The notes beneath the pieces are model-generated. The model ran no database searches. It had not been told where the DNA came from and worked only from the letters and a program-made list of their open reading frames with translations. Positions 1-61,658 of a stretch of DNA of 64,000 nucleotides are shown here, in pieces (the first letter of the stretch is position 1; each line of letters begins with the position of its first letter). Source of the DNA: Myxococcus stipitatus (GTDB lineage: Bacteria; Myxococcota; Myxococcia; Myxococcales; Myxococcaceae); NCBI RefSeq assembly GCF_021412625.1, contig NZ_JAKCFI010000003.1, forward strand, positions 248,001-312,000, given 5' to 3'. Position numbers and translations under genes: made by a program.

Positions 1-281
1 AACGATGCCAACGTGGTCCATCCGCTGAAGTGCCATGCCTCCGAGCATAGCCCAGCAAGCACCCCACCTGACCGATCCTCACGAGAGAAGCCCGCACGGC
101 CCTCCCATGTGACGCGGCCCACGCACCACCACGAGCGCTGACGCTCGATTCCTCCACCCAGGCCGTACCAGTCCCTCCGCACCTGCCCCATGAGCGCGAG
201 CGGAGAGACTCGGGAGACGACCTCGTGAGACACGGGGACGCTCGACCGCCACGGGAGCCCGCGCGAGACTCCCAGTCCACC

Positions 282-52039: not shown

Positions 52040-52187
52040 GGTGGGACTCCTGGTCGAGAGGGAACGACACCGGGGATACGCGTGGAGGAGCCTGCGCGGG
52101 CCGCGGCCCTCTTTCACGCGGCTTTGCGCGGCCAGCCGGCCCGGAGTCTTCTACAGTCCGGTCCGCCCACTCCTTACGCTCCGCGCC

Positions 52188-53327
52188 ATGTCCAACCTCC
52201 GACCTTCCTTCTACCGTCTGGCCGTCCGCGTCGATGCCACCTATGACGCGATGAGCCGGCGGCTGCGTCGGTCCCTGGGCGTCGCGCCGCCGCTGCGCAT
52301 CCTCCCGTACCGGGGCTACGGCACCGCCGCGCGCGCCGTCATCAAGGCCCGCGTGCTGGAGGACCGGAACATCCGCCCGCAGCAGCAGCGGCACACGTTG
52401 GTGAGCAGCGCCGTCGCCTCCTACAAGCGGTACATGACGCGCGAAATCCCCGGCGCCCACGTCGCCGTGCGCTGGGGGGACAAGCGCTGGGAGGGCACCA
52501 CCGACGAGGAGGGCTTCCTGGAGCTGTGGGTGGCGCCGCCGGAGGGCGTGCGCTCGGGCTGGCACATGGTGGAGCTGGAGCTGTTGTCCCCGGAGCCGGA
52601 GGGCGTGCCCCGCGTGGCGGCGCCGGTGCGCGTGGCCGGTCCCAACGCGGAGTACGGCGTCATCAGCGACATCGACGACACCGTCATCGTCACCGGCGTG
52701 ACGGACCTGCTCAAGCGCGCCTGGGCGCTGTTCCTCACCGAGCACCGCGTGCGCCTGCCCTTCCCGGGCGTGGACGCCTTCTACGCGGCCCTCCAGGCCG
52801 GCGGCGGCGGCGGCGCGGACAACCCCATCTTCTACGTGTCCAGCAGCCCGTGGAACCTCTACGAGCACCTGGACGAGTTCCTCGCCCTGCACAAAATCCC
52901 CACCGGGCCCCTGCTGCTGCGCGACTGGGGCCTGTCCAGCCAGGGCTTCGCGCCCGGCGGTGGCCACGGCCACAAGCTGGAGAAGATTCGCGGGCTGCTC
53001 ACGAACCTGGAGCACCTGCCCTTCATCCTCATCGGCGACAGCGGCCAGGAGGACGCGGAGCACTACCGCACCATCGTCCGCGAGTTCCCCGGCCGCGTGC
53101 TGTGCGTCTACATCCGCAACGTGCCCGGCCACCCCCGCCGCGCCCGCGAGCTGTCCCTCATCGCCGAGGACATCCGCGCCGCCGGCAGCCAGCTGCTCGC
53201 CGTGGACGACACCACGACCGCCGCCCGCCACGCCGCCCGCGCCGGCTGGATTCAGTGGAAGGAGGTCCTCGAGGTCGAGGCCCACCGCCGCGAGGACCTC
53301 CCTCCCCAGGAGCCCGGCGCCGAGTAG
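52188..53327 (+). CDS. App1-like phosphatase (DUF2183)
   Basis: Starting at 52188 (MSNLRPSFYRLA), the 379-residue product has an N-terminal beta region (about 60-150) and a HAD-like C-terminal domain. The active-site pair is in YGVISDIDDTVIVTG (about residue 157), and downstream motifs read FYVSSSPWNLY and LIGDSGQEDAEHY. This is the App1/DUF2183 fold, which in yeast is a phosphatidate phosphatase. Here a lipid-phosphate role is inferred. No signal peptide is evident. Confidence 0.85.
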   Translation: MSNLRPSFYRLAVRVDATYDAMSRRLRRSLGVAPPLRILPYRGYGTAARAVIKARVLEDRNIRPQQQRHTLVSSAVASYKRYMTREIPGAHVAVRWGDKRWEGTTDEEGFLELWVAPPEGVRSGWHMVELELLSPEPEGVPRVAAPVRVAGPNAEYGVISDIDDTVIVTGVTDLLKRAWALFLTEHRVRLPFPGVDAFYAALQAGGGGGADNPIFYVSSSPWNLYEHLDEFLALHKIPTGPLLLRDWGLSSQGFAPGGGHGHKLEKIRGLLTNLEHLPFILIGDSGQEDAEHYRTIVREFPGRVLCVYIRNVPGHPRRARELSLIAEDIRAAGSQLLAVDDTTTAARHAARAGWIQWKEVLEVEAHRREDLPPQEPGAE

Positions 53328-53746
53328 GGAACTGGAAGTTCGGATTCAGATATTACGGAAAAATCACGACACGGCTTGAATTCAGGGCTCGGGTTGTGGC
53401 ACAGGCGCGCCCGATTCACGGGTTGTCCCTGTTTCCACACACCCTGAAGGAAGCGAGTGAAGCGTGGCCCCCTGGTGCATTGGTTTCTGTGGGCGCTCTC
53501 CGCGCTGGCGGCTGGCGCGAGCGGCTCGTCGGGCGCGGAGGTCGTCGGTGCGGTCGCTGGTGAGGGCGCGCCGGCGCTCCCGCGTCCGGAGCCTTCACGC
53601 CCGCACGGCGACGCTGTGGACGGTGCGGCCCTCGTCGGCGCGGTGAGGGCTGGGGGCCCGGGGAGTGACGGGGCGCGCGAGGCCGCCCCGGAGGAGTGGA
53701 GCCCCGGAGAGGGGGCCCCGGCGCCACGCTCCGGGACGGCGGGGCT
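53328..53746. other. 419-bp gene-free interval with strong hairpins
   Basis: The first 80 bases are unusually AT-rich (53330-53400). A GTG-started reading from 53457 has a signal-peptide-like start but runs through the terminator hairpin and into the glycosyltransferase gene on the other strand, so I do not call it. The last 50 bases are a stable hairpin that likely ends the glycosyltransferase mRNA. Confidence 0.55.
53700..53746 (-). terminator. Nested hairpin at the end of the glycosyltransferase gene
   Basis: AGCCCCG (53700-53706) pairs with CGGGGCT (53740-53746), immediately after the stop at 53747. A second pair, CCCGGAG (53703-53709) and CTCCGGG (53729-53735), overlaps it, so the RNA could fold in either way. 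No U-tract. Confidence 0.6.
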
Positions 53747-56617
53747 TCAGTGGGCCACGCGCCGCAGGGGCTGGGCCTGGGATTGGGGCTGGGGCTCGGG
53801 GAAGAGCAGCTCCAGCGTCTCGCGGGCGTAGCGCTCGCGGCCGTAGTAGGTGCTCGCCTGCCGCATGCGCTCGGCGCGGGCGCGGGCCAGCTCGGGGTCG
53901 GCCAGCATCTGCTCCAGGGCGGCCACGTAGTCGGCGGCCTCGGACTGCTGGTGGATGTGCCAGGACAGCTCCGCCGGCAGCACGTCCGGGATGGAGGTGT
54001 TCGCGATGGAGGCCACCACGGGGAGGCCCGCGGCCATGGCCTCGTAGATGACGAGCGGGATGCCCTCGTAGCGCGACGTCATCATCAGGCAGTCCGCGGC
54101 GCGGTACTGCGGCACCGGGTCGTTCACCGCGGCCTGGAGCGTCACCACGTCGGACAGCCGGTGCTCGGCGATGAAGGCGCGCAGCGCGGGCTCCTCCGGA
54201 CCGCTGCCGACCAGGTGGAAGCCCAGCTTGTCCGCGCCATGCCGCTCCTTCCAGAGCCGGGCCACGCGCAGGCACATGAGCGGGTCCTTCTCCTCCGCGA
54301 GCCTGCCCAGCCACAGCACGCGCGGGCGCTCGCCGGGCGCGAAGCGCTCGCGGTGCGCCGCGCCGAAGCGCTCCGTGTCCACGCCCAGCGGGACGAGGCG
54401 CACCTTGGTCGGCGAGACGAAGACCTCCTCGGTGAAGCGCGTCGCCGTCTCCCGGCTGATGCTGGCGTAGGCGTCGATGAAGGCGTCGTAGCGCGTCGCG
54501 GAGTACGGGCAGTGGCCGAACCACTCACCCGTGACGGGGTCGCAGGGGAAGGTGTGCGCCTGGGAGATGACGCGCAGCTCCGGGCGCTGCTCGCGCAGGA
54601 GCGGCAGCGCGTCGAAGCCCTCCTTGCTGTTGGCCACCAGGACCGCGCCCACGTTCAGCCGCTCCACCAGGGAGGCGATGAGGGGGCTCGCGTCGCGCGG
54701 CGGCCGACCGTCCACGCTGAACACGCCGTCCACGCACGCGAGCACCTCGTCCGCCCAGGCCATGGGCACGGAGCGGGCGTCGTTGATGGTGGCGAGGACG
54801 TAGCGGCGCTGCCTGGGGGCGATGCGGTGCAGGCCCTGGAGCAGGTCCACCACCGCGCGCTCGACGCCGCCGTGGACCATCCACGACACCATGACGAGCA
54901 GCGCCGGCGTGTCCGCGCCCGCCAGGGGGCCCTCCTCGAAGCGGGGCTTCTGGGTGAGCGCGCGGTAGAGCGCATTGCGCTGCCGCGAGACGTGCAGACG
55001 CCAGGGCGCGAACGGCCCCGCGCGCACGCTCCGGGGCGCGCTGGCGTGGAGCTCCGTCGCCCCGGCCGGCAGCGCCTGTGCTGGCATGGGCGCGCTCTCC
55101 CCCAGCCACTGCGCGCGCAGCCGCCGCGCGGAGGTGGAGGACAGCAGCTTGTCGTGCGCGTTCGCGCCAATGGCGCCCCGCAGCAGCTTGCTGGCGCCTC
55201 GCCCCATCAGCGAGAAGCTCTCGCGCAACATGCGCTTGCGCTCGGTGAGTACCTGGGCACCGCCGTGCGCGGGGACGAGGGATGGCGCGAGCGGGAGGGG
55301 GCAGGGCAGTCCCTCACCCGGCTCCCGGGAGGGGCCCACCACCATGTAGAGGGCGGCGCCGGGCGCGAGCTGGCGCATGTGCTGCTCGAGGTCCTCGAGC
55401 AGCCCGTCCTCGCCGCGCGCCAGGGGCGGACCCTCCAGCATGCGCAGCGGGTCCACCGCGAAGCCCACGCAGCGCATTCCCGCGTCACGCACCTCGTGCT
55501 CCTTGACGAGGAAGCCCGGGTAGGCCTCGCCCGCGTCGGCGGTGACGAGCCACAGCAGGGGAGGGCGCCCGTCCTCCAGCACCCGCGCCACCTTCTCCAA
55601 CAGGAAGCGGTCCGCGCCCAGCGCCGCGCCGAGCGCGTCGTCGTCCACGCTCACCAGCATCCGCGCGAAGTCCGGCCCGGGGCGCTGGAAGGCGGCGAAG
55701 CCTCCCTCGCGGGTGACCCGGTTCGTCTCGTCCACCACCTGGAAGTCGCGCAGCGTCTGCCGCTCCAGCTCCGGGCGCAGGCGCGTGCTGGTGGCGGCGA
55801 TGGCCAGGTACGGGTCGTACCGGCGCTTGAGCTGCGTCAGCCGCTCCTCGTCCCCGTAGAGCGCGGCCCGCTCGTGGTGGAGCTGGTCGATGAGCTGGGC
55901 GCGCTTGGAGTTGGACTCCGACAGCATGCTGTAGCCCCAGCGCCGGTAGCGGAAGACGACGTGCTCCAGGCTCCGCGCCAGATGTCCCCGCTCCACGCAC
56001 GCGTGGATGAAGAACTCCCAGTCCTCGTACCCCTGGCGCATCCGCTCGTTGTAGAAGACGCCCGAGTCGAAGACGGTCCGCCGGATGGCGGAGCTGCAGA
56101 TGAGGTCGTTGCCCCACAGCAGCCGCCACGGATTGAAGGGCGGGCACTCCCAGAGCAGGTCCTCGTGGCCGAAGTGGGTGAGGTCCGGGTACCAGACGTC
56201 CACCTCCGGAGAGGTCATCACGGCCCGCGAATAGGTGGCGATCGCCTCCGGCAACAGCATGTCGTCCGCGTCCAGGGGGAGGATCCAATCCCCGGTGGAC
56301 GCGCGGATGCCGGTGTTGCGCGCGCCGGACAGCCCGCGGTTCTCCTGGCGGATGAGGCGTACCCCATCCACGCACAGCTCCTGCATCCTGCGCACGGAGA
56401 ACTCATCCGTGGAGCCGTCGTCCACGACGATGATTTCGTGGGGCGCGAGCGTCTGCGCGCGGAGGCTTGCCAGGCACTCGGCGAGGAACGCCCCCTGGTT
56501 GTAGCAGGGGATGACGACACTGAAGCGAGGCGCGGCGACGGGCTTCACGGAGGCACTGGCGAGCCCTTCGCGCACCTCCGGACCCTTGGTGGCGCCCTGG
56601 ATCGGTTTCACGGTCAT
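53747..56617 (-). CDS. Bifunctional GT2-GT4 glycosyltransferase
   Basis: The 956-residue protein carries an N-terminal GT-A (GT2) domain (about 30-260) with VVIPCYNQ, VVDDGSTD, the metal DxD in LPLDADDML (Asp 116 and 118) and the catalytic ED in GYEDWEF (198-199). A C-terminal GT-B (GT4) domain (about 590-950) has HGGVERAVVDLL, LGVDTERF, VLWLGRLAEEKDPL and SRYEGIPLVIYEAM (E-x7-E). A linker of about 300 residues joins them. It likely adds two sugars in succession to a lipid or polymer in the cytoplasm, for surface polysaccharide. An upstream GTG at 56635 adds six residues; the ATG at 56617 has GGGAAG ten bases before. It is the second gene of a tandem pair. Confidence 0.9.
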   Translation of the reverse strand: MTVKPIQGATKGPEVREGLASASVKPVAAPRFSVVIPCYNQGAFLAECLASLRAQTLAPHEIIVVDDGSTDEFSVRRMQELCVDGVRLIRQENRGLSGARNTGIRASTGDWILPLDADDMLLPEAIATYSRAVMTSPEVDVWYPDLTHFGHEDLLWECPPFNPWRLLWGNDLICSSAIRRTVFDSGVFYNERMRQGYEDWEFFIHACVERGHLARSLEHVVFRYRRWGYSMLSESNSKRAQLIDQLHHERAALYGDEERLTQLKRRYDPYLAIAATSTRLRPELERQTLRDFQVVDETNRVTREGGFAAFQRPGPDFARMLVSVDDDALGAALGADRFLLEKVARVLEDGRPPLLWLVTADAGEAYPGFLVKEHEVRDAGMRCVGFAVDPLRMLEGPPLARGEDGLLEDLEQHMRQLAPGAALYMVVGPSREPGEGLPCPLPLAPSLVPAHGGAQVLTERKRMLRESFSLMGRGASKLLRGAIGANAHDKLLSSTSARRLRAQWLGESAPMPAQALPAGATELHASAPRSVRAGPFAPWRLHVSRQRNALYRALTQKPRFEEGPLAGADTPALLVMVSWMVHGGVERAVVDLLQGLHRIAPRQRRYVLATINDARSVPMAWADEVLACVDGVFSVDGRPPRDASPLIASLVERLNVGAVLVANSKEGFDALPLLREQRPELRVISQAHTFPCDPVTGEWFGHCPYSATRYDAFIDAYASISRETATRFTEEVFVSPTKVRLVPLGVDTERFGAAHRERFAPGERPRVLWLGRLAEEKDPLMCLRVARLWKERHGADKLGFHLVGSGPEEPALRAFIAEHRLSDVVTLQAAVNDPVPQYRAADCLMMTSRYEGIPLVIYEAMAAGLPVVASIANTSIPDVLPAELSWHIHQQSEAADYVAALEQMLADPELARARAERMRQASTYYGRERYARETLELLFPEPQPQSQAQPLRRVAH

Positions 56618-56651
56618 TGTCGTGTTGCTTCCCACTCGAGGAGGCGGCGCG

Positions 56652-59363
56652 CTAGCGCATCGATTGGATTACCGGCGGAGGTGTCAACAGCTCCAGCAGA
56701 TGACGTGTCGCCGGCTCCCATGTCGCGGAGAACGCGCGTGCCCCCTCGGCCTTCACGCGTGTCGTTTCCCGGACATCCAGCATGTACTCCAGGGCCCTCA
56801 CGTAGTCGACGGCGCGCGAGGGATTCTCCAGCACCCAGGCCAGCTGGGCCGTCAGCTCCGGGGACATGCCCGGCGCCTTGGACGAGGCGATGACGGGCAC
56901 TCCCGCCGCCATGGCCTCCAACACCAGCAACGGCTGTTCGGGCGGAGGCGTGGGGAGGATGACCGCGTCCGCGTCCGCGAACAGCGACGACCAGTCTCCC
57001 GTCACCTTCGTCCGCCACGACACCCGGTCGAGCAGGTGCCGGCTCTCGAGCGCGCGAGGCAGCCAGCCCCGCTCCTCGGCGGGCGTGACGACGATGAAAT
57101 GGGGGCCCTTGTGCGCGTGGCGCTGGTGCCACAGCTGCATCAGCTCCAACAGCAGCAGCTGCGTGCCGTCGTCGACGACCGTGGGCGTGTACCACAGCAG
57201 GTGGGGCGTGGCGTCCTCCGCGAGCACCCGGGCACGCCGGGCCTCCGCGCGTGGCACCTCCACCACCGGCGGCACGACGTGGACCTTGGAGGCGGACACG
57301 TAGAAGTCGCGCGCGAGCTGCTCGGCGGTGAGGTGGGACGTGACGGCGTAGGCGTCGAGCAGGTTGTTGAAGCGACCCGCCACGTGCGCGCAGGGCGCCA
57401 CCGGGCCGTCCTGGCTCACGGGCATCTGGATGCCGTGGGACTGGGCGACGAGGCGCAGCCGGCGCGGCAGCTTGCGCAGCGCGGGAATCGCGTCGTAGCC
57501 GATGCGGCTGTCGGCGATCAGCACCGCGCCCACGCCCAGCTGCGCGGCCAGGCGCGCGACGTCCTCGGGCTTGGGGTGGGACTCGAGCGACGCCAGGCAC
57601 CAGGCGCTCGCCACGTGCGGCAGCAGGTCCGCCGCCAGCGCGTTGCCGGCTCCCTCCTCCCGCGTGACGAGCACGTGCAGCCGCCGGTGGGGCTCCAGGC
57701 GCGCCAGCTCCCGCACGAGCCGCGCGCGGGACTGGCCCACCCGGGAGCTCGCCAGCGAGGGGAGGACGACGAGCACGGCCCCCGCGTCCGGCGCGAGCGC
57801 CGGCGCGAAGCGTGGGGCCTGCTCGAACGCCCAGAGGTGCAGCTCCCGCATGCGCGGCTCCCCGAGCCGCGCGCTGGACAGGGGCCCCGGCCAGCTCGGC
57901 GCCACCACGGGCGCGGGCCGGGCGCCCTCGGCCAGCCGCGCGCGCAGCGCATCGCCCAGCCGCGAGTGCAGCAGCCGCGAGTGGACGTCGGGGCTCAGCG
58001 TGGCCTGGGACAGCCGCGCCGCGCTCTTGCCCAGCAGGCGCATCCCCAAAAGCAACTGCTCCTGGCGCCCGGTGTTCGAGGGCACCGCGGCGGACGGCTC
58101 CGCCGGAATCGTCTCCAGGAAGACCTCCGGCAGGGCCACGCCCTCGGAGGGAGACTGGTGGGTGCCCACCACGAGCGTGAGCGTGGCCTGGGGCGCGAGC
58201 CGCTCCACGTGGTGCGCCAGGTCCGCCAGCGCGTTGTCCCCACGCTGCGGAATCGCGGGCGCGTCCACCAGGGCTCGCGGCGACAGGCAGTAGCCCACGC
58301 AGCGCACCGACGGCGCGCGCGCCTCCGGGCCGGTGAGCACCGCGCCCGGCCACGCCATGTCCGCCGGCGTGGTGACGAGCCACATCAGCGCCGCCGGGTG
58401 GTGGTGGAGCGTCCGCGCCACCTTCTCCAGCAGGAAGTCGTCCGCGCGCGCCGCCAGCGCCAGCGCCGTGTCCTCCAGGCTCACCAGCGCCCGCGCGCAG
58501 CGCACGTCCTGGAACACGCCCAACCCTTCTCCACCCGAGGCCCGGCCCGTGTCGTCCACCACGAGGAAGTCCTGGAAGTGCTGGTTGCCCAGCGCGTGTG
58601 CGAGGACCTGGCTCTGCGTCGCCACGCCCAGGTAGGGCGCGTGCTGGCGCTTCACGCGCGTCAGCGCCTCGGCGTCCTGCAGGAAGGGGTGCTCGCGCGA
58701 CAGCGCTTCCGCCCGCGCCGCGCGCAGCGTCCGCGCCTGGAACCGGTCATGTCCCCACACGCGGTAGCGCAGCGCGGGGGCCTCCAGGTTCCTCGCCACG
58801 AAGCCGTGCTCCACGCAGGCGTGGATGAGCAGCTCCCAGGCCCCACCGTCCTCGCGCGCCTGCTCGTCGTAGAGCACGCCCGAGTCGAACACGGCGCGCC
58901 GCACCGCGGCGCCGTAGTGTTCCGGCGCCTCCAAGAGCTGACGCCAGGCGTTGAAGCACGGGCGCTGACGCGGGCCCTGCTCCAGGCCCATGAACTCCGC
59001 GTCCGGCAGCCACACGTCCACCTCGGGCGCGCCCGCGATGGCGCGCGCGTAGGTGGCCAGCGCCTCCGGCGGCAGCTCGTCCATGACATCCAGCGGCACC
59101 ACCCACTCGCCGGTGGCCGCGCGAATGCCCGTGTTGCGCGCGCCCGCCAGCCCCCGGTGCTCCTGCCGCACCAGCCGCACGCCCTCCACGCATTGCTCCT
59201 CCAACGCGCGCAGGGTGGCCGCGTCCGTGGAGCCATCGTCGACGACGATGATTTCACGCGGCGGGAGCGTCTGCGCGCGCAGGCTGCGCAGGCACGCGGC
59301 GAGGAAGGTGCCCTGATTGAAGCAGGGCACGACGATGCTGAAGCGAGGTGACGAGGCAGGCAT
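56652..59363 (-). CDS. Degenerate GT2-GT4 protein, tandem paralogue
   Basis: The 903-residue protein has the same two-domain layout as its neighbour (VVPCFNQ, VVDDGSTD and GLAGARNTGIRAATGEW kept). The active-site motifs are changed. The DxD region reads PLDVMDELP (Asp 92, Val, Met) and the ED base is replaced by GGAWEL. In the GT4 half the E-x7-E reads TPPPEQPLLVLEAM, losing the first Glu, and the GRL-EEKD segment is replaced by YTPTVVDDGTQ. I read it as a likely pseudoenzyme that may bind nucleotide or partner its active neighbour. The gene is upstream in the operon, 34 bases before it. Confidence 0.85.
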   Translation of the reverse strand: MPASSPRFSIVVPCFNQGTFLAACLRSLRAQTLPPREIIVVDDGSTDAATLRALEEQCVEGVRLVRQEHRGLAGARNTGIRAATGEWVVPLDVMDELPPEALATYARAIAGAPEVDVWLPDAEFMGLEQGPRQRPCFNAWRQLLEAPEHYGAAVRRAVFDSGVLYDEQAREDGGAWELLIHACVEHGFVARNLEAPALRYRVWGHDRFQARTLRAARAEALSREHPFLQDAEALTRVKRQHAPYLGVATQSQVLAHALGNQHFQDFLVVDDTGRASGGEGLGVFQDVRCARALVSLEDTALALAARADDFLLEKVARTLHHHPAALMWLVTTPADMAWPGAVLTGPEARAPSVRCVGYCLSPRALVDAPAIPQRGDNALADLAHHVERLAPQATLTLVVGTHQSPSEGVALPEVFLETIPAEPSAAVPSNTGRQEQLLLGMRLLGKSAARLSQATLSPDVHSRLLHSRLGDALRARLAEGARPAPVVAPSWPGPLSSARLGEPRMRELHLWAFEQAPRFAPALAPDAGAVLVVLPSLASSRVGQSRARLVRELARLEPHRRLHVLVTREEGAGNALAADLLPHVASAWCLASLESHPKPEDVARLAAQLGVGAVLIADSRIGYDAIPALRKLPRRLRLVAQSHGIQMPVSQDGPVAPCAHVAGRFNNLLDAYAVTSHLTAEQLARDFYVSASKVHVVPPVVEVPRAEARRARVLAEDATPHLLWYTPTVVDDGTQLLLLELMQLWHQRHAHKGPHFIVVTPAEERGWLPRALESRHLLDRVSWRTKVTGDWSSLFADADAVILPTPPPEQPLLVLEAMAAGVPVIASSKAPGMSPELTAQLAWVLENPSRAVDYVRALEYMLDVRETTRVKAEGARAFSATWEPATRHLLELLTPPPVIQSMR

Positions 59364-59367
59364 CGGA

Positions 59368-59386
59368 GAGGTGACGCTGTTACCTC
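59368..59386. promoter_or_regulatory. Imperfect inverted repeat at the start of the glycosyltransferase operon
   Basis: GAGGTGAC (59368-59375) and GTTACCTC (59379-59386) pair with one mismatch around three bases, five bases before the start codon at 59363. It may hide the ribosome site or bind a regulator. Confidence 0.35.
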
Positions 59387-59498
59387 ACCCCCCTCGAGGT
59401 CCGCAAGCCACGCCAGTCCCAGTGACTCCCTCGAACTTCGCTCTGCTCAACTAGAATCAAAAAATCTTGGGGTTCTTGGTAGTCGTGTTGCCTGCCCA

Positions 59499-61658
59499 TC
59501 AAGGGAGCAGGCGCCCCCCCTGGAACTGGGCGAGTCGGGTGCTGCGCTCCATCAGCTCGCCCTGGGCCCAGCGTCGCTCGCCTCCGGGCGGTGGCGTCAG
59601 GCGGCGCCAGTTGCCATCGGCTTGCAATTCCCACGCGTGCGTGTTGTCCGCGAGGTTGCGCTCCAGCGCGTCGCGCACCTGTGTGGCCAGGGTGGGGTCC
59701 TCCACCGGCGCGAGGATTTCCACGCGATGGTCCAGGTTGCGTGGCATCAGGTCCGCGGACCCGATGTAGCAGCGCAGCTCCGCGCCGCGCTCGAAGATGT
59801 AGACGCGCGCGTGCTCCAGGAACCGGCCCAATGTGGACACCACGCGGATGTTTTCCGACACGCCGGGGATGCCCGGGCGCAGGCAGCAGATGCCGCGCAC
59901 GTTCAGCTCCACCCGCACCCCGGCGCGGGACGCGTCGTAGAGGGCGCGGATGATGCCCGGGTCCACCAGCGCGTTCATCTTCATCTGGATGCGGGCGGGG
60001 CGCTCCAGGGTGTGGGCGACGACGGTGCGCTTGATGTGCTCCAGCAGGCCCTCGCGCATGGTGAGCGGCGCCACCAGCAGCTTGCGGAAGCTCTTCGGCC
60101 GGCCGAAGCCGGTGAGGTAGTTGAACAGGTCCGCCACGTCCGCGCCGATGTCCGGGTCCGTGGTGAACAGGCCCATGTCCGTGTAGAGGCGCGCCGTCTT
60201 CGGGTTGTAGTTGCCCGTGCCGATGTGCACGTAGTGCCGCACTCGCTCCCCCTCGCGCCGGACGATGAGGATGGCCTTGGCGTGCGTCTTCAGCGAGGGG
60301 ATGCCGTACACCACGTGCACGCCCGCCTCTTCCAGCGCGTTGGCCCACTTGATGTTGGTGCGCTCGTCGAAGCGCGCCTTGAGCTCCACCATGCACACCG
60401 CCTGCTTCCCGTTCTCCGTGGCGGTGATGAGCGCGGGCACCAGCGGCGAGCTGTCGGACGTGCGGTAGACCGTCTGCTTGATGGCGAGCACGTCCGGGTC
60501 CCCCACCGCCTCCGTCACGAAGCGCTCCACGGACGTGGCGAAGGACTCGTAGGGGTGGTGGACGAGCAGGTCCCCGCGTCGCATCGCCGCCATCACCGTG
60601 CCACCCTCCGGCGAGTCCGTCTCCGGCCGCAGCCGGGGCTGGGTGACGGGCGTCCAGGGCGGGTCCTTCAGCTCCGGGAAGCCCGGCGCGAAGGCGATGG
60701 CCTGCAGGTCCCCCAGGCCCAGCAGCCCCTGCTCCTCGTACACCTGGCGCGGCTCCAGCCCCAGCGCCTCCACCAGCGGCTCGAGCAGCTTGGGGCTCAT
60801 GCCCGCCTGCACCTCCAGGCGGATGACGTCCCCGAAGCGGCGCTGGCGCAGCTCCGTCTCCACCGCCTTGAGCAGGTCCTCCGCGTCCTCGGACACGGTG
60901 AAGTCCGCGTCGCGGGTGACGCGGAACAGGCTCCAGCTGAGCACCTCCATGCCGGGGAACAGGTCCCCCAGGTGCTGCGCGATGACCTCCTCCAGCGGCA
61001 CGAAGACGTTGCCCTTGAGCGGCAGGAAGCGCGGCAGCAGCTCCTTGGGCACCTTCACCCGCGCCACGCTCTCCTCGCCCGCCTCCGGGTCCTTCAGCAG
61101 CACCGCCAGGCTCAGCGACAGGTTGGAGATGTACGGGAAGTGCCGCCCCAGGCCGATGGCCAGCGGCGTGAGCACGGGGAATATCTGCTCGCGGAAGCGC
61201 TGGTCCACCTGGGCCCGCTGCTCCGCGTCCAGCTCCCTCGCGCCGAGGATGCGCAGGCCCTTCTCCGCCAGCGCCGGGCGCAGCAGCTTCTCGAAGATGG
61301 CGCTGTGGCGCTTGCTCTGCTCGAAGATGCCCTCGTGCAGCTTGTCGAGCGTCGCCGTCGGGGACGCGCCGTCCGGCACCAGCCGCGCCACGCCGCCGCG
61401 CACCTGCTCGTGCAGGCGCGCCACGCGAATCATGAAGAACTCGTCCAGGTTGCGCGCGTAGATGGCCACGAACTTCAACCGCTCGAGCAGCGGCTCGTCC
61501 GAGGATTCGGCCAGTTGGAGCACCCGGTCGTTGAAGGCCAACCAGGACAGCTCCCGGTTGAAGAACAACCCCTCGTCCATCTCCACCCCCGCCGGCAGGA
61601 CATCTCGCTCCAAGGGCTTCTGGGTGACGCTGCGTCCCGCGCCGCCTCGCTTCGCCAT
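59499..61658 (-). CDS. ppk1: Polyphosphate kinase
   Basis: The 719-residue protein is full length for the PPK1 family. It begins EGLFFNRELSWLAFNDRVLQ and has RNLDEFFMIRVARL in the N-terminal region. The active-site His block is HIGTGNYNPKTARLYTDMGL (about residue 474) with MKMNALVD, and the second PLD-like half has CYIGSADLMPRNLDHRVE. It makes polyphosphate from ATP at the inner membrane, linked to stress and developmental control in myxobacteria. The start at 61658 has GGAG nine bases upstream. The next gene downstream is the glycosyltransferase pair, 135 bases away. Confidence 0.97.
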   Translation of the reverse strand: MAKRGGAGRSVTQKPLERDVLPAGVEMDEGLFFNRELSWLAFNDRVLQLAESSDEPLLERLKFVAIYARNLDEFFMIRVARLHEQVRGGVARLVPDGASPTATLDKLHEGIFEQSKRHSAIFEKLLRPALAEKGLRILGARELDAEQRAQVDQRFREQIFPVLTPLAIGLGRHFPYISNLSLSLAVLLKDPEAGEESVARVKVPKELLPRFLPLKGNVFVPLEEVIAQHLGDLFPGMEVLSWSLFRVTRDADFTVSEDAEDLLKAVETELRQRRFGDVIRLEVQAGMSPKLLEPLVEALGLEPRQVYEEQGLLGLGDLQAIAFAPGFPELKDPPWTPVTQPRLRPETDSPEGGTVMAAMRRGDLLVHHPYESFATSVERFVTEAVGDPDVLAIKQTVYRTSDSSPLVPALITATENGKQAVCMVELKARFDERTNIKWANALEEAGVHVVYGIPSLKTHAKAILIVRREGERVRHYVHIGTGNYNPKTARLYTDMGLFTTDPDIGADVADLFNYLTGFGRPKSFRKLLVAPLTMREGLLEHIKRTVVAHTLERPARIQMKMNALVDPGIIRALYDASRAGVRVELNVRGICCLRPGIPGVSENIRVVSTLGRFLEHARVYIFERGAELRCYIGSADLMPRNLDHRVEILAPVEDPTLATQVRDALERNLADNTHAWELQADGNWRRLTPPPGGERRWAQGELMERSTRLAQFQGGRLLP

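Follow-up and report, generated by a model that had tools for sequence, protein, structure and literature searches.

Two adjacent genes in the 64,000-nucleotide stretch of the genome of the soil myxobacterium Myxococcus stipitatus analysed here (the window; contig NZ_JAKCFI010000003.1, positions 248,001 to 312,000) encode two-domain glycosyltransferases (GTs), each with an N-terminal GT2 half, a middle region and a C-terminal GT4 half. The downstream copy, gene 2 (53747-56635, minus strand), has the full set of catalytic motifs, whereas both active sites of the upstream copy, gene 1 (56652-59363, minus strand), are very probably dead, judging from the loss of motif residues. The reading towards which we lean is that gene 1 is a pseudoenzyme partner of gene 2, in preference to decay of a duplicate.

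Catalytic motifs of the tandem glycosyltransferases

A first-pass annotation, made from the sequence of the window, had described tandem two-domain glycosyltransferases with a shared layout, and the open reading frames (ORFs), translations, Pfam matches and alignments bear this out. Gene 1 encodes 903 amino acids (aa), and its sole stop codon is the terminal one, in agreement with the intact frame described earlier. Gene 2 encodes 962 aa from a GTG at 56635 or 956 aa from an ATG at 56617; the latter is the likelier start, because the orthologue of Myxococcus dinghuensis begins with the same MTVKPIQ. The two proteins align over nearly their full length, with 363 of 933 columns identical (39%, 540 bits). 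Pfam detected a GT2 domain at the N terminus and a GT4-type domain at the C terminus of both, separated by about 300 residues with no Pfam match. In gene 1, the GT2 (GT-A) half covers residues ~6-205 (58749-59348, minus strand), with a PF00535 match at residues 9-119 (92.7 bits against a cut-off of 23.3). The middle region covers residues ~240-524 (57792-58646, minus strand); it was delimited by alignment and a low-confidence model, and can be aligned across the orthologues of both genes and, loosely, with one outside relative. The GT4 (GT-B) half covers residues ~526-899 (56667-57788, minus strand), and its Glycos_transf_1 score is 32.2 bits vs 83.4 bits in gene 2.

The catalytic motifs of GT-A and GT-B enzymes considered here are DxD (metal), ED (base), GR...K and E-x7-E. 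At the DxD site, gene 2 has DADD (56261-56272), whereas gene 1 has DVMD (residues 92-95, 59079-59090); at the site of the ED base, the YEDW of gene 2 (ED at 56021-56026) corresponds to GGAW in gene 1 (residues 173-176, 58836-58847). In the GT4 half, WYTPTVVDDG (residues 724-733, 57165-57194) replaces WLGRLAEEKD (GRLAEEKD of gene 2 at 54284-54307), with both the Arg and the Lys lost, and PEQPLLVLE (residues 808-816, 56916-56942) replaces EGIPLVIYE (54041-54067), so that Pro stands in place of the first Glu of E-x7-E and the second Glu is retained. All these motifs lie on the minus strand. The substitutions listed in the first-pass annotation (DADD to DVMD, YEDW to GGAW, GRLAEEKD to TPTVVDDG, EGIPLVIYE to PEQPLLVLE) are thus real, as is the retention of DDGSTD in gene 1. 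Its statement that the GRL-EEKD segment was lost is right about the motif residues, which are gone, but the change is a substitution and not a deletion.

Orthologues of both genes were found in M. dinghuensis and Myxococcus sp. RHSTA-1-4; below, W, D and R denote the window species, M. dinghuensis and RHSTA-1-4, respectively, and 1 and 2 the upstream and downstream copies. W2, D2 and R2 have four canonical motifs each, and gene 2 is predicted to be an active bifunctional GT2-GT4 enzyme. When 147 genomes of the class were searched with a profile (E up to 1e-60), ten gave matches, and three relatives outside the tandem locus and its single-gene counterpart described below have the full-length architecture: O1, O2 and O3. 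O1 aligns over its whole length with the gene 2 orthologues, and O2 and O3 match profile positions 2-912 and 2-913 of 924. In a further genome (G056) the GT2 and GT4 pieces are on separate contigs, and the matches in three others (G042, G055, G141) span the GT2 half only. All three relatives have catalytic residues at all four sites (DSDD, YEDW, GRLxxDK and the E-x7-E pair), with NDGSTD in place of DDGSTD; therefore, the motif losses in gene 1 are derived. A Bacteroides match (L055, query residues 31-944) was rejected as a fused homologue, since it consists of separate adjoining GT4 and GT2 genes.

The GT4 site is lost in all three gene-1 orthologues: in W1, D1 and R1, neither Arg nor Lys occurs at the GR...K columns and Pro replaces the first Glu, and they have the derived PEQ and MSPEL stretches in common. 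The GT2 site is lost only in W1 and D1, both of which have GGAW at the ED site, whereas the DxD and ED motifs are intact in R1. The claim that both active sites are eroded therefore holds for two of the three upstream orthologues. As for the conservation of the replacing residues, GGAW is shared by W1 and D1 and PEQ by all three proteins, but the metal site reads DVM in W1 and STL in D1. W1 and D1 are 72% identical, and either is 46-50% identical to R1 overall. Since W1 and D1 share the loss of both sites, this state predates the divergence of the window species and M. dinghuensis, and is more than a single decayed allele.

Three-dimensional models were constructed using AlphaFold2 on nine sequences (mean predicted local distance difference test score, pLDDT, 57.8 and 58.3). 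The GT2 and GT4 halves are usable; in the middle region pLDDT is mostly <50, and nothing was drawn from the model about its fold. For structure matching, only the gene 1 model was used. Its residues 526-899 match 7qsg_A (VIA-align Z 26.0, 3.8 Å over 339 residues), the model also matches TarM, BshA and PimA entries (Z 23-27), and its GT2 half matches GT-A enzymes such as 6p61 (chain C; Foldseek, target template modelling score 0.80). The alignment behind the models includes the intact paralogues, so these matches indicate compatibility of the two halves with the GT-A and GT-B folds, short of proof. A search with the gene 1 sequence against solved structures (E up to 0.01) listed 20 chains, none of which has its best stretch in the GT4 half.

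Duplication, probable gene conversion and distribution of the pair

In the whole-protein tree, the upstream copies W1, D1 and R1 form one clade and the downstream copies another, both with a support of 100; the GT4 tree gives the same grouping (100 for the upstream and 85 for the downstream copies). In this and the other partial trees, the end of the GT4 N-lobe was placed with the C-terminal part. From the whole-protein grouping, the duplication appears to predate the divergence of the window species and RHSTA-1-4. Two partial trees speak against this simple history: R1 stands beside R2 and not with W1 and D1 in the GT2 tree, and it is weakly (58) set apart from W1 and D1 in the tree of the middle region.

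Comparison of the R1 and R2 DNA (locus L040, 6423-9197 and 9201-11981) in 40-codon windows revealed 98-100% identity at alignment codons 0-120 and 98% at codons 160-200. In the intervening window (120-160) identity is 78%, and in every window from codon 400 it is 39-64%. The stretches of high identity contain the DxD and ED motifs. Gene conversion between R1 and R2, in two tracts over the GT2 active-site stretches, is the probable explanation. Because the GT2 site of R1 lies within these tracts, its intact state may be ancestral or restored. The first-pass annotation had held that orthologues of the upstream copy with intact motifs would refute it; R1 is such an orthologue in its GT2 half, inside the conversion tracts, and is not one in its GT4 half.

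A search with gene 1 in 96 genomes of the family (E up to 1e-40) gave matches in four, all from one genus represented by 27 genomes. The tandem pair is present in three of the 27 (the window genome, of 10.1 Mb, M. dinghuensis, G016, and RHSTA-1-4, G019), and in all three the eroded copy is directly upstream of the intact one. The fourth genome (G026), which also carries O1, has one gene only at the site (S), lacking the donor-binding lobe of GT4. S was set aside as a guide to the order of events: its GT2 half, middle region and GT4 N-lobe group with different clades, and it was treated as a mosaic. A 48-base tandem repeat of 3.6 copies lies in frame within S near the start of the GT4 half (L041 6894-7066).

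All four loci are situated between the polyphosphate kinase gene ppk (59499-61658, minus strand) and a convergent gene for an APP1-type phosphatase, App1 (52041-53327, start uncertain, plus strand; PF09949, with the family search run on 52119-53324); both flanks were assigned by Pfam and synteny. In G026, there are two additional ORFs between them. In the 23 other genomes of the genus, the 6-9 kb that follow ppk contain no match to any of the five gene queries (E up to 1e-6); App1 is present at that site in 22 of them. In a midpoint-rooted tree of the single gene App1 from 26 of the 27 genomes, the window species and M. dinghuensis are sisters, while RHSTA-1-4 and G026 are in another clade. 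The locus would be either ancestral and repeatedly lost, or transferred between species at the same site.

Constraint on gene 1

The frame is intact in all three gene-1 orthologues; frame-breaking mutations, named in the first-pass annotation as the mark of a decaying pseudogene, were looked for and none was found. All eight indel runs between W1 and D1 are multiples of three. When the observed W1-D1 substitutions were placed randomly, 342 or 328 amino-acid differences (standard deviation ~8) and 4.3 or 6.9 stop codons were expected, vs 249 and zero observed; stop-free shuffles made up 0.016 and 0.002 of the total. In the same test, gene 2 has 149 amino-acid differences vs 249 expected, with 3.8 stops expected. 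In a neutral simulation, gene 1 remained stop-free in 0.000-0.003 of runs at an equilibrium GC of 0.7-0.8.

The whole-gene ratio of nonsynonymous to synonymous substitution rates (dN/dS, or omega) for W1-D1 is <1 under every model and ranges from 0.17 to 0.57. GY94-F3x4 gave 0.174 for W1-D1 vs 0.107 for W2-D2 (p of equality 0.006), with twice the log-likelihood difference of gene 1 from omega = 1 being 214.5. The MG94-type fit, our own approximation with the likelihood averaged over both directions, gave 0.449 vs 0.286 at GC 0.7 and 0.375 vs 0.243 at GC 0.8 (the corresponding gene 1 statistics are 56.3 and 80.2). NG86 gave 0.571 (bootstrap 0.478-0.699) vs 0.364, and maximum likelihood in Biopython 0.186 vs 0.119. 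W1 and D1 have third-position GC contents of 0.94 and 0.96, so F3x4 probably inflates dS. A description of gene 1 as being under strong purifying selection, which the F3x4 value of 0.17 had suggested, was dropped after the further models, the random placement and the comparison with non-coding DNA.

Differences between the parts of the protein can be noted. In the middle region, F3x4 found no difference between the genes (gene 1 0.149, gene 2 0.124, p 0.52), and the MG94-type fit at GC 0.7 found gene 1 somewhat looser (0.456 vs 0.312). In the GT4 N-lobe, gene 1 is constrained as much as gene 2 in three models: F3x4 (0.122 vs 0.143, p 0.74) and the two MG94-type fits (0.309 vs 0.423 and 0.270 vs 0.361). 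The ratio of observed to randomly placed amino-acid differences there is 0.61-0.63 for gene 1 vs 0.74 for gene 2. Overall, gene 1 is weakly constrained, least of all in the donor-binding lobe of GT4, and the magnitude depends on the model.

Several results weigh against selection for a maintained protein. Gene 1 exceeds all of the eight neighbouring genes used as controls for the same species pair under F3x4 (0.028-0.127), and all seven of these used in the MG94-type fit at GC 0.7 (0.081-0.306); gene 2 is inside the control range. The GT2 half is relaxed in gene 1 under F3x4 (0.198 vs 0.073, p 0.009), as is the GT4 C-lobe (0.221 vs 0.056, p 0.002). In this C-lobe, divergence at the three codon positions (0.246, 0.190, 0.229) is near to no periodicity, amino-acid differences are 0.79-0.87 of those under random placement, and the least favourable model gains no more than 5.7 in likelihood over omega = 1. 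For a shorter N-lobe stretch, with bounds differing from those of the other tests, NG86 gave 0.662 for gene 1 vs 0.448 for gene 2, and the intervals overlap and include 1. At an equilibrium GC of 0.9, stop-free copies of gene 1 are not very rare in the neutral simulation (0.033-0.067). The W1-D1 divergence of 19.0% equals that of nearby non-coding DNA (18.4-25.2%), namely 18.4% in the spacer between gene 2 and App1 (332 columns), 21.7% in the core of a lipoprotein-gene remnant overlapping this spacer, and 25.2%, above the value for gene 1, in the ppk-gene 1 spacer (135 columns). To these can be added the different residues at the former DxD site of W1 and D1, nine further codons deleted beside the ED site in D1, and the lack of the pair in 24 of the 27 genomes of the genus.

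The earlier suggestion of selection rather than random decay is thus partly supported, by the frame, the indels and a dN/dS below 1, and is tempered by a constraint looser than in the controls and a divergence at the non-coding level. Likewise, dN/dS in relatives, proposed there as a check, is below 1 in every model, but the catalytic parts are significantly relaxed. As regards what defines a pseudoenzyme, gene 1 has lost its catalytic residues, and its constraint is significant yet weak and model-dependent.

Possible role of the eroded copy

Gene 1 is a duplicate of a bifunctional GT2-GT4 glycosyltransferase, and we propose that it lost the donor-sugar chemistry of its GT4 half and, in the lineage leading to M. 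dinghuensis and the window species, that of the GT2 half as well, with the protein still being kept. Most likely, gene 1 would act as a non-catalytic subunit that pairs with gene 2 and assists in holding or positioning the acceptor glycan. Gene 2 would then catalyse both transfer reactions for a polysaccharide that is secreted or exposed at the surface. We infer the pairing from the adjacency of the two genes in three genomes of three and from known pairs of a GT and a pseudo-GT. An acceptor-binding role is suggested since the part of gene 1 that has retained constraint best is the N-lobe of GT4, the lobe chiefly responsible for acceptor binding in GT-B enzymes. Selection for a partner role of gene 1 is plausible. 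A bolder version, which we consider doubtful, is that the intact sister depends obligately on the doubly dead protein as a non-catalytic subunit, whose lost GT4 site would have been remodelled into a conserved PEQ/MSPEL surface binding the acceptor glycan or the partner.

The main competitor, to which we assign a smaller though appreciable chance, is that gene 1, a duplicate made superfluous by gene 2, is undergoing slow decay and losing its sites one by one on the way to a pseudogene, the residual constraint coming from avoidance of toxic misfolding or from co-translation with gene 2. The losses do pile up (GT4 in three copies, GT2 in two, the nine-codon deletion in M. dinghuensis), the catalytic lobes are relaxed, and gene 1 has diverged like the nearby non-coding DNA and is looser than every control gene. 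Such a gene is also missing in 23 of the 27 genomes and shortened in one more, and in all three species with the pair the neighbouring lipoprotein gene has already been reduced to a remnant. However, decay does not readily account for the absence of stops where 4.3-6.9 were expected, eight of eight indels in threes and the deficit of amino-acid differences, nor for a whole-gene omega below 1 under all models, an N-lobe as constrained as that of the intact copy in three of them, and a PEQ common to the three orthologues.

Gene 1 could have gained a different activity, with another ligand being bound or converted in its altered GT4 pocket (PEQ-x-L-x3-E, MSPEL), which seems improbable to us. PEQ, placed exactly at the position of the lost Glu, and MSPEL are shared at only 46-50% overall identity, and fixed differences between the gene-1 and gene-2 trios are densest in the C-terminal part of GT4 (23 of 229 columns, compared with 10 of 141 in the N-terminal part, 15 of 312 in the middle region and 0 of 192 in GT2; the end of the N-lobe is again counted with the C-terminal part). 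This apparent contrast is small, though; since W and D diverged, constraint has been lowest in the C-lobe, the shared residues may be plain inheritance, and Pfam found no other enzyme family in gene 1. Least probable of all, and very improbable, is that gene 1 remains catalytically active by way of non-canonical residues. There are glycosyltransferases with unusual motifs, and gene 1 retains DDGSTD as well as the second Glu of E-x7-E; but the metal ligand, the base, the Arg and Lys of GR...K and the first Glu are all gone, and all of them are present in the three outside relatives.

The surroundings of the outside relatives differ from those of the pair: O1-O3 have the same GT2-middle-GT4 architecture, but they are single genes with intact motifs. 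O2 (in G063) has a divergent nucleotidyltransferase gene on one side and a gene for a GtrII-type glucosyltransferase on the other (L103 7964-13433). This adjacency points to a surface polysaccharide pathway, by analogy. An uncharacterised nucleotidyltransferase (PF14907) is encoded ~4 kb from O3 (G099). Among the ORFs scanned (18 of the 42 listed, over all neighbourhoods), no glycosyltransferase was found near O3, and neither a glycosyltransferase nor a nucleotidyltransferase near O1.

Pairs of an active glycosyltransferase and an adjacent dead paralogue are already known. According to PMC6973325, GtfB of the GtfA-GtfB pair of accessory Sec systems serves as an acceptor-binding chaperone, the interaction being via DUF1975. 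No Pfam match to DUF1975 was found in gene 1 or gene 2 (E up to 1). GtfA-GtfB act in protein O-glycosylation of serine-rich repeat adhesins, unlike the polysaccharide role proposed here, and they are only an analogue of the putative complex of gene 1 and gene 2. Both are GT4-type proteins, and we know of no dead GT2 half in that system. EXT1 and EXT2 are homologous proteins with two GT domains that form a heterodimer, in which, according to PMC9675754, the GlcA-transferase domain of EXT2 is a pseudo-domain. The likeness lies in the homologous pair with two GT domains each. EXT1-EXT2 are eukaryotic Golgi enzymes, and only one domain of EXT2 is described as inactive, whereas both would be in gene 1. 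The domain families of EXT1-EXT2 differ from GT2 and GT4. K4 chondroitin polymerase (2z86/2z87), the best match of the GT2 half among solved structures by sequence, carries two GT domains on a single chain, each of which the GT2 half matches, and has no GT4 half; to our knowledge, enzymes of this type have no dead sister.

Searches of the open-licence PubMed Central (PMC) literature for inactive or pseudo-glycosyltransferases, or for such a setting in Myxococcus, found nothing on this locus, which is not proof of its being unpublished. What appears to be new is the combination of losses in the two halves of a single two-domain protein with an intermediate that still exists and with probable gene conversion across active-site stretches. 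If the partner role is true, gene 1 would be a bacterial two-domain counterpart of EXT2 with both domains pseudo, and a living relative would hold the intermediate with GT4 dead and GT2 alive. If the dead copy is a real subunit, the Myxococcus genomes with this locus would offer a rare series of a two-domain GT turning into a non-catalytic partner: a single site is gone in one of the species and both sites in the other two, and in one species gene conversion homogenises the active-site stretches of both copies. How the events were ordered, and whether sites were rescued or lost, could then be addressed. If there is only decay, this would be a modest, well-resolved case of domain-by-domain erosion after duplication.

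Some minor features of the locus can be added. The ppk stop codon is 135 bases from gene 1, on the same strand. No sigma-70-like promoter and no terminator-like site was found in 59300-59700, but myxobacterial promoters may differ from the pattern used, so an operon with ppk does not follow. An Rfam search of 53000-60000 gave nothing at the gathering score. Between App1 and S of G026, there is a frame of 314 aa (L041 5345-6289), which may be an ADP-ribosylglycohydrolase-type gene; it is also matched at the site in G010 and partly in G002. The spacer between gene 2 and App1 contains the remnant of a lipoprotein-type gene (53463-53657; L053 12835-13035 and L054 12816-13215 at the M. dinghuensis and RHSTA-1-4 loci). 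In the window species and M. dinghuensis, only the N-terminal ~67 codons match well, and in RHSTA-1-4 there are two separate matching parts, one of whose alignments contains a stop. At the same place in G026, an open lipoprotein-type frame of 424 aa is found (L041 3854-5128), with full-length matches in 4 of the 23 other genomes of the genus and partial matches in 5.

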